Below, in pieces: positions 33,771-35,009 of a DNA stretch of 64,000 nt. Position 1 is the stretch's first letter. The number at the start of each line of letters is the position of its first letter. The position numbers were made by a program, and so were the translations under genes. The stretch spans positions 248,001 to 312,000 of the forward strand of contig NZ_CP019646.1 in assembly GCF_001999965.1 (NCBI RefSeq). Reading direction: 5' to 3'. The stretch comes from Limihaloglobus sulfuriphilus (GTDB lineage Bacteria; Planctomycetota; Phycisphaerae; Sedimentisphaerales; Sedimentisphaeraceae). A model generated the notes under the pieces. That model made no database searches, was not told the DNA's origin, and was given only the letters and a program-made list of their open reading frames with translations.

Positions 33771-33803
33771 AAAAAAAAGGCGGTGCCGTTTGACGCCGCC
33801 TTT
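33771..33803 (-). terminator. Intrinsic terminator of the 61-aa ORF
   Basis: The stem AAAGGCGG/CCGCCTTT has a 12-nt loop. On the - strand it is followed by a run of T (A8 on the + strand, 33771-33778). It ends the small - strand transcription unit. Confidence 0.8.
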
Positions 33804-33840
33804 GGATCCCGGAAATCAGGATAAAAAATTGATAATAGCG

Positions 33841-34026
33841 TTACTCGCTAAAGTTGTGATGCAGAATGATGTCGATCTCATGGTCGTGACATAAATGAAA
33901 CAGGTTCCCGTAGATCATTTTCTTAGTGCGGGGACGGTAGCCTATCATCTCATCACCATCCTTTACTTCGGTGCACCAGCCCGTTTTTTTCAGGCTGTTG
34001 GTAACCTTCATTTCTAATGCGTCCAT
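33841..34026 (-). CDS. Small protein of unknown function (61 aa)
   Basis: Not recognised. The 61-aa product has mixed charge and a histidine-rich end (LFHLCHDHEIDIILHHNF), two cysteines, and no signal peptide or membrane segment. Reality is supported by a GAGGT ribosome-binding site 7 nt before ATG, a strong promoter about 260 bp upstream on the same strand and an intrinsic terminator 35 bp after the stop. Two other terminator hairpins lie between promoter and ORF, so expression may need read-through. The CxxDH/HH pattern might bind a metal, which is speculation. Confidence 0.6.
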   Translation of the reverse strand: MDALEMKVTNSLKKTGWCTEVKDGDEMIGYRPRTKKMIYGNLFHLCHDHEIDIILHHNFSE

Positions 34027-34081
34027 TTCTTACCTCACGATTAAGAGTAATAATATGTTACCCGGCCGCTAAGCCGGCACG

Positions 34082-34122
34082 AAAAAAAACCGACACCGAA
34101 GACTTCGCTCCTGTGTCGGTTT
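34082..34122 (-). terminator. Terminator-like hairpin in the leader of the 61-aa ORF
   Basis: The 10-bp stem AAACCGACAC/GTGTCGGTTT encloses an inner CGAAG/CTTCG pairing. On the - strand it is followed by eight T. It lies upstream of the 61-aa ORF, with no ORF of note between it and the previous hairpin. Confidence 0.75.
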
Positions 34123-34177
34123 AACTGTTTCCAATATTTTTTCAGCAACATGCATTTTATAATATGCCGTCCTTGCA

Positions 34178-34230
34178 AATAAAAAACCCGAATGCTAAGA
34201 AGAGATTAACTCTTCCTGGCGTTCGGGTTT
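34178..34230 (-). terminator. First terminator-like hairpin of the leader
   Basis: The stem AAACCCGAA/TTCGGGTTT extends after one mismatch to GC/GC, with an apical GAAGAG/CTCTTC helix. On the - strand it ends in a T-rich tract. It lies about 50-95 nt after the predicted start of transcription. Confidence 0.75.
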
Positions 34231-34278
34231 ATATTGTTAGTTTTAGTTTGCTCATAATTAAAACTCGTTTCTGTTTAC
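34183..34278 (-). ncRNA. Candidate short RNA (promoter to first terminator)
   Basis: The consensus promoter at 34313-34285 would start transcription near 34278, and the first terminator would end it near 34183, giving an RNA of about 95 nt dominated by one long hairpin. A possible 8-codon ORF (MSKLKLTI) lies at its 5' part. It may be a small RNA or an attenuated leader of the 61-aa gene. Confidence 0.4.
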
Positions 34279-34284
34279 AAATTC

Positions 34285-34313
34285 ATATTAGGAGATAGTT
34301 AGAAGTTTGTCAA
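34285..34313 (-). promoter_or_regulatory. Near-consensus sigma70 promoter
   Basis: TTGACA (34313-34308), a 17-nt spacer and TATAAT-like TAATAT (34290-34285) on the - strand. It is one of the best promoter matches in the window and points toward the two terminators and the 61-aa ORF. Confidence 0.75.
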
Positions 34314-34506: not shown

Positions 34507-34749
34507 ATGACATCTATAACTGTAACAAACGCTCGTAAAGAACTATATAATCTTCTTGATCAGCTGCAGCAATCGCATGAACCCGTACATATTACCAGTA
34601 AACGGGGAGGCGGAGTTTTAATCTCCGAGCAGGATTGGTCGGCGATACAGGAAACTCTCTACCTCCAGTCGATCCCGGGGATGACAGAGAGCATTATCGA
34701 GGGCATGAACACGCCCATAGAAGAGTGCTCCGAGGATCCGGGATGGTAG
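34507..34749 (+). CDS. yefM: YefM-family antitoxin
   Basis: This 80-aa Phd/YefM antitoxin has an N-terminal DNA-binding part (SITVTNARKELYNLLDQLQQ) with the ITSKRGGGVLISEQDW strand-turn-helix, and an acidic C-terminal tail that should wrap the toxin. AAGGA precedes ATG 34507. It overlaps the toxin gene by 7 bases, ensuring coupled synthesis. The pair autoregulates through the upstream GTAC palindromes. Such modules stabilise genome regions or act in stress. Confidence 0.92.
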   Translation: MTSITVTNARKELYNLLDQLQQSHEPVHITSKRGGGVLISEQDWSAIQETLYLQSIPGMTESIIEGMNTPIEECSEDPGW

Positions 34750-35009
34750 GATGGAAAGTTGTTTTTACCTCCAGGGCACGAAAGGATTCCAGAAAACTTT
34801 CATCATCGGGCTTTCGTTCCAACGCGGAGAAACTCCTTGATATCCTGGAACACGACCCATTTCAATCCCCACCTCCGTATGAGAAACTCGTGGGCAATCT
34901 CACCGGCTGTTATTCGCGCAGGATAAATATCCAGCACAGATTGGTTTACAGTATCAACGAAGAAGAAAGGGTGGTCAAAATACTTCGAATGTGGTCACAT
35001 TATGAATGA
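34743..35009 (+). CDS. yoeB: YoeB-family ribosome-dependent mRNA endonuclease toxin
   Basis: This 88-aa toxin of the RelE/YoeB fold cleaves mRNA in the ribosomal A site. Visible functional residues are the glutamate in PYEKLVG, arginines in YSRRINIQHRLVY and the terminal His-Tyr in MWSHYE, all in the positions conserved in YoeB. The start at ATG 34743 (MVGWKVVFTSRARKD) overlaps the antitoxin stop by 7 bases; longer readings upstream are out-of-frame antitoxin sequence. It appears intact. Confidence 0.92.
   Translation: MVGWKVVFTSRARKDSRKLSSSGFRSNAEKLLDILEHDPFQSPPPYEKLVGNLTGCYSRRINIQHRLVYSINEEERVVKILRMWSHYE

Follow-up and report, generated by a model that had tools for sequence, protein, structure and literature searches.

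The gene for a 61-aa small protein in the window (the whole 64,000-nucleotide stretch of DNA analysed here) probably lies in a transcription unit under attenuation of some kind, with a sigma70-type promoter, two tandem intrinsic terminators (T1 and T2), the gene and a third terminator (T3) following one another on one strand (Table 1). For the narrower reading, in which the unit is self-contained and a ribosome on a short leader ORF is the likely switch at T1, we see about an even chance. To our knowledge, transcription attenuation has hardly been described in Planctomycetota; if the attenuation reading is true, this unit would be a compact case that several genera have kept, and its layout points to a small protein that matters enough for its gene to sit behind one or two terminators.

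Table 1. Features of the unit and of its neighbours, in window positions
Feature	Position	Strand	Basis or remark
Sigma70-type promoter, TTGACA-17-TAATAT	34285..34313	-	10/12 consensus matches
Transcription start (predicted)	about 34278	-	placed from the promoter
Leader ORF 1, ATG AGC AAA CTA AAA CTA ACA ATA TAA (MSKLKLTI); weak Shine-Dalgarno GAG 8 nt upstream	34229..34255	-	predicted
T1 terminator hairpin, then TTTTTT	34183..34230	-	-25.4 kcal/mol fold
Possible leader ORF 2, ATG, 28 aa, MHVAEK..., reads through T2	34069..34155	-	weak, not above chance
T2 terminator hairpin, then TTTTTTTT	34086..34122	-	-17.7 kcal/mol fold
61-aa small-protein gene, Shine-Dalgarno GAGGT before ATG	33841..34026	-	homologues, synonymous changes
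T3 terminator 3′ of the 61-aa gene, then 8 T	33771..33803	-	about -17 kcal/mol fold
Phd/YefM-type antitoxin gene	34507-34749	+	Pfam E 9e-17; divergent from the attenuated unit
Saccharopine-dehydrogenase-like gene, then overlapping PLP decarboxylase-like (Orn/DAP/Arg-decarboxylase-like) gene	33578-31258	-	downstream of T3

An earlier note on this DNA described a consensus promoter feeding two tandem terminators, a third terminator behind the ORF and no known leader family. The promoter motif is present, although it is near-consensus rather than consensus. Both terminators between promoter and ORF, each with its T tract, and the T3 hairpin behind the ORF are borne out, with folds more stable than those of dinucleotide shuffles (z of -5.6 for T1, -3.4 for T2 and -2.5 for T3), and T3 is the predicted end of the transcription unit. 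A simple consensus terminator scan finds none of them, an omission probably due to mismatches in the stems; a fold-based scan recovers T1 and T2. Terminated RNAs of about 97 nt (T1) and 195 nt (T2) are predicted. Rfam likewise gave no match at the gathering score over the region, the best sub-threshold hits (E 0.33 and 0.55) being at chance level.

As a genomic background we used 464 kb of the window genome, composed of a 400-kb sample and the 64-kb window, which holds 317 intrinsic terminators; in 15 cases two of them lie on the same strand less than 150 nt apart. T1/T2 is the sole pair among the 15 that is preceded within 150 nt by a promoter with 10/12 matches or more. Two further strong tandem terminator pairs from the same genome, at L064 5895-6043 (+ strand) and L062 6746-6574 (- strand), have no near-consensus promoter upstream.

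The 61-aa ORF had been called an orphan with a good ribosome-binding site; the GAGGT before its ATG stands, but the ORF is not an orphan, as homologues are found in eight genomes (the window genome counted), all of one order. These are the window genome, four members of its own family with 70-75% identity and three further genomes, and the set includes Phycisphaerae or Planctomycetota metagenome bins. Codon changes within genera are all synonymous (14/14 and 5/5), with 14 synonymous and no non-synonymous changes in the gene between L010 and L011, and twelve residues are invariant in the family (M1, E5, G16, W17, T19, E20, Y30, P32, K36, Y39, G40 and L55). Judged by its codons, the ORF is a real gene under protein-level selection. 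Its product has no family match in Pfam, NCBIfam, PHROGs or PADLOC and no significant relative in a PDB sequence search, and searches at the class level (~390 genomes) and the phylum level (~390) gave no convincing homologue outside the order; the matches beyond it (E 0.005-0.05) are short and mostly lie within longer unrelated frames. By these searches the protein represents a new, clade-restricted small-protein family. A mobile-element, phage or plasmid origin was rejected, with no relatives among viral contigs, phages and plasmids.

The AlphaFold2 model of the protein has an alpha-beta-beta-beta-alpha(-alpha) arrangement with a mean pLDDT of 72-78, and its structural matches are weak (Foldseek E at least 0.14). 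The best VIA-align match is Hjc, with Z of 5.5-5.6 over 57 residues, which is within the range of common arrangements; HicA, level with unrelated folds, scores Z 4.6-5.0 over 52-53 residues. We rejected a HicA toxin (PF07927), for which there is no Pfam match and an hhalign probability of 10.6% over 14 columns, and the His that is invariant in the relatives' HicA is missing from the invariant residues of the small-protein family. A PD-(D/E)XK nuclease-like protein (Hjc, UPF0102) was also rejected, with the third strand reading K-(M/T)-(F/I)-Y-G and lacking the ExK of the E/D...D...ExK motif; the hhalign probability of UPF0102 to the family is 3.6%.

A sigma70-type promoter (9-11/12 matches), at least one strong terminator and the ORF follow one another in 8/8 loci, which come from related genomes and are not eight independent confirmations. 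The strong terminator hairpins have folds of -19 to -26 kcal/mol and a T tract; T1 is present at every locus, tandem terminators at six of the eight, and a terminator-like hairpin is also found 3′ of the gene in the four same-family relatives. The shape of the T1 hairpin is constant despite sequence change, with two basal pairs altered on both sides between genera. In the leader of L039 (1195-1300) we observed a second terminator-like hairpin, with ~220 nt from hairpin to small-protein gene, a longer distance than in other relatives.

Adjacent genes vary between most lineages, and in the comparison of L012 with L013 the alignable DNA spans promoter to T3 only, with 94-99% identity in the leader and flanks at an unrelated level (0.47). 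In these two loci the start codon follows the T2 T-tract by only ~43 nt, hardly enough space for another promoter, and with the conserved block this makes it most likely that expression of the gene requires the polymerase to read through the terminators. That conditional read-through controls the small protein, one of two outcomes put forward when the DNA was first annotated, is well supported because the layout travels with the gene in eight genomes, the neighbours mostly differ and the L012/L013 block runs from promoter to T3.

The other outcome was one or two small RNAs; in our version of it, these terminated RNAs would be the chief products and act in trans, with the small protein a by-product or separate. 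RNAs of the two predicted sizes from a strong promoter would fit this, as would the high leader identity of L012 and L013 next to unrelated flanks. We nevertheless hold it to be quite unlikely, since the T1 RNA shows little sequence conservation between genera beyond the form of the hairpin, the leader is always joined to the small-protein gene and a second copy was not found in the window genome. Simple damping, in which a strong promoter and fixed leaky termination keep the small protein low, at a constant or bursty level, and no signal is involved, is also unlikely: two strong serial terminators would suffice for low constant output with no regulator, and the inducing signal is so far not known, but a weaker promoter would be the simpler route, whereas strong promoter and strong terminators are maintained in 8/8 genomes and the part of the leader before T1 is kept within genera.

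In the window, a frame at about 34750-35009 (+ strand) that follows the divergent Phd/YefM gene resembles a YoeB/RelE-type toxin. Downstream of T3, the dehydrogenase-like and decarboxylase-like genes look like a carboxynorspermidine dehydrogenase and decarboxylase pair, with a promoter-like site of its own at 33645-33618. We rejected a functional tie of the small protein to this pair because the relatives have different neighbours and T3 separates the units. In a further genome of the order, two adjoining CBS-domain-like genes (L015 495-913 and 64-444) lie beside the homologous small-protein locus.

A Shine-Dalgarno-led ORF of 6-15 codons lies ahead of T1 in 8/8 loci, starting 23-28 nt before the stem. 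Its stop codon, which falls anywhere from 10 nt before the stem to 22 nt inside it, is usually in the 5′ part of the hairpin, and in the window it overlaps the foot of T1. The leader peptides (MSKLKLTI, MARIIK, MRKVKKPVEETR, MTIDKYSLEPKAEI, MHDLDRYSDPANKGF and MRNTRIESCCRK) differ between genera, and a run of codons for a single amino acid, of the trp/his type, is absent from those compared. When the leaders of the six non-duplicate loci were shuffled, an ORF with an equal or better Shine-Dalgarno arose with P of 0.02-0.18 per locus (0.02 for the window), and Fisher's method over the six gives a combined P of about 4e-4 (hand calculation). In the genomic background a comparable ORF is rarer, preceding 14.6% of 315 terminators, or 5.7% at a distance of 20-31 nt, a range picked after the data were seen. 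We regard this evidence as suggestive and short of proof, because of the modest P values of single loci, that post hoc distance, the TTG start of 4/6 non-duplicate T1 leader ORFs and a Shine-Dalgarno match of only three bases (GAG) in the window. A small hairpin over the leader Shine-Dalgarno also appears in the folds, with z of only -0.2 to -1.9. The position of the ORFs suggests that leader translation may melt T1 and, as a Shine-Dalgarno-led ORF reaches T1 in all relatives, ribosome-mediated attenuation is the leading candidate mechanism.

An ORF is present before T2 in all tandem cases, yet at a frequency expected by chance, and we rejected it as a regulatory element. The lack of a convincing leader ORF at T2 would sit well with attenuation that does not use a ribosome, in which the folding of T1 and T2 would depend on a NusG-like antiterminator, a ligand or a protein that binds RNA and might be the small protein itself. 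A conserved leader with hairpins is compatible with any attenuator, the T1 stems retain internal mismatches and bulges, and the predicted alpha-beta-beta-beta-alpha fold of the small protein is weakly similar to the dsRBD-like HicA, among others. On the other hand, Rfam returned no leader, truncated MFE folds gave no alternative antiterminator hairpin pairing with the T1 5′ arm that was consistent across loci, and no strongly conserved unpaired motif was found in the leader across genera; such a mechanism would also leave the ORF before every T1 unexplained. We consider it a somewhat unlikely alternative to leader translation.

For ribosome-mediated attenuation, we propose that the strong promoter fires and that most transcripts would stop at T1 or T2, so that the 61-aa protein would be produced only after RNA polymerase has passed both. 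A fast-loading, closely trailing ribosome on the leader ORF would mask the T1 5′ arm, blocking the hairpin and letting the polymerase pass, whereas with a slow or absent ribosome T1 would fold and the 97-nt RNA would be released. The signal would then be the general translation state or the polymerase speed, and not one amino acid, because the leader peptides share no common codon run. Passage of T2 could reflect residual coupling, a second factor or plain leakiness. Our data show the anatomy of the unit, the coding nature of the ORF and the conserved layout; that the promoter is active, that the hairpins terminate, that the leader ORF is translated and which way control runs we infer here from sequence. 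In Escherichia coli, termination at an intrinsic terminator dropped from ~90% to <10% when the stop codon ahead of it was shifted from 28 to 5 bp away, and terminators in the initial 100 bp of coding sequence frequently resist repression by ribosomes, which have yet to catch up with the polymerase unless it pauses (PMC4824070).

More speculatively, the two successive terminators could form a double checkpoint that senses ribosome-polymerase coupling via minimal leader ORFs, and the 61-aa product would then be a new factor related to translation or RNA, perhaps acting back on its own leader; we think this improbable. If the leader ORF does control T1, nature would have in this unit a very small sensor of how transcription and translation are coupled. 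The cell plan of Planctomycetota is unusual and makes such coupling an open question in the phylum.

Among known systems, the E. coli pyrBI attenuator has a leader ORF that overlaps an intrinsic terminator, and a close ribosome prevents the hairpin with no need for a codon run. The unit described here would be alike in both the overlap and the dispensability of an amino-acid codon run (pyrBI is discussed in PMC4824070). It differs in that the leader ORF has 6-15 codons and usually stops within the 5′ part of the hairpin, in that there are often two terminators, and in its product, which is no pyrimidine enzyme but an uncharacterised protein of 61 aa. The antibiotic-response gene vmlR reportedly has a ribosome-mediated attenuator composed of a leader ORF and an intrinsic terminator. 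In bmrB-bmrCD, too, a leader ORF and an intrinsic terminator precede the regulated gene (PMC4191407). In attenuators of this type, resistance or transport genes are induced through ribosome stalling and alternative hairpins, whereas the unit in the window shows neither a visible antiterminator nor a gene of that kind. The Salmonella mgtCBR leader, with mgtM and mgtP, resembles the tandem loci in carrying two attenuators with short ORFs (PMC3641672), but its ORFs are proposed to respond to ATP and proline by shifting alternative stem-loops; we found no such stem-loop consistently in MFE folds, and the second ORF is unsupported. The unit may also resemble the DUF1127 attenuator of Sinorhizobium meliloti, where a leader ORF governs premature termination ahead of a small-protein gene, although that termination is thought to be Rho-dependent with no intrinsic terminator (PMC12218461), unlike the intrinsic terminators in the window, and the 61-aa protein matches no Pfam family, DUF1127 included. 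The unit described here differs from these designs in its minimal leader ORFs, in stacked intrinsic terminators that lack a visible antiterminator, and in a product from a new protein family.
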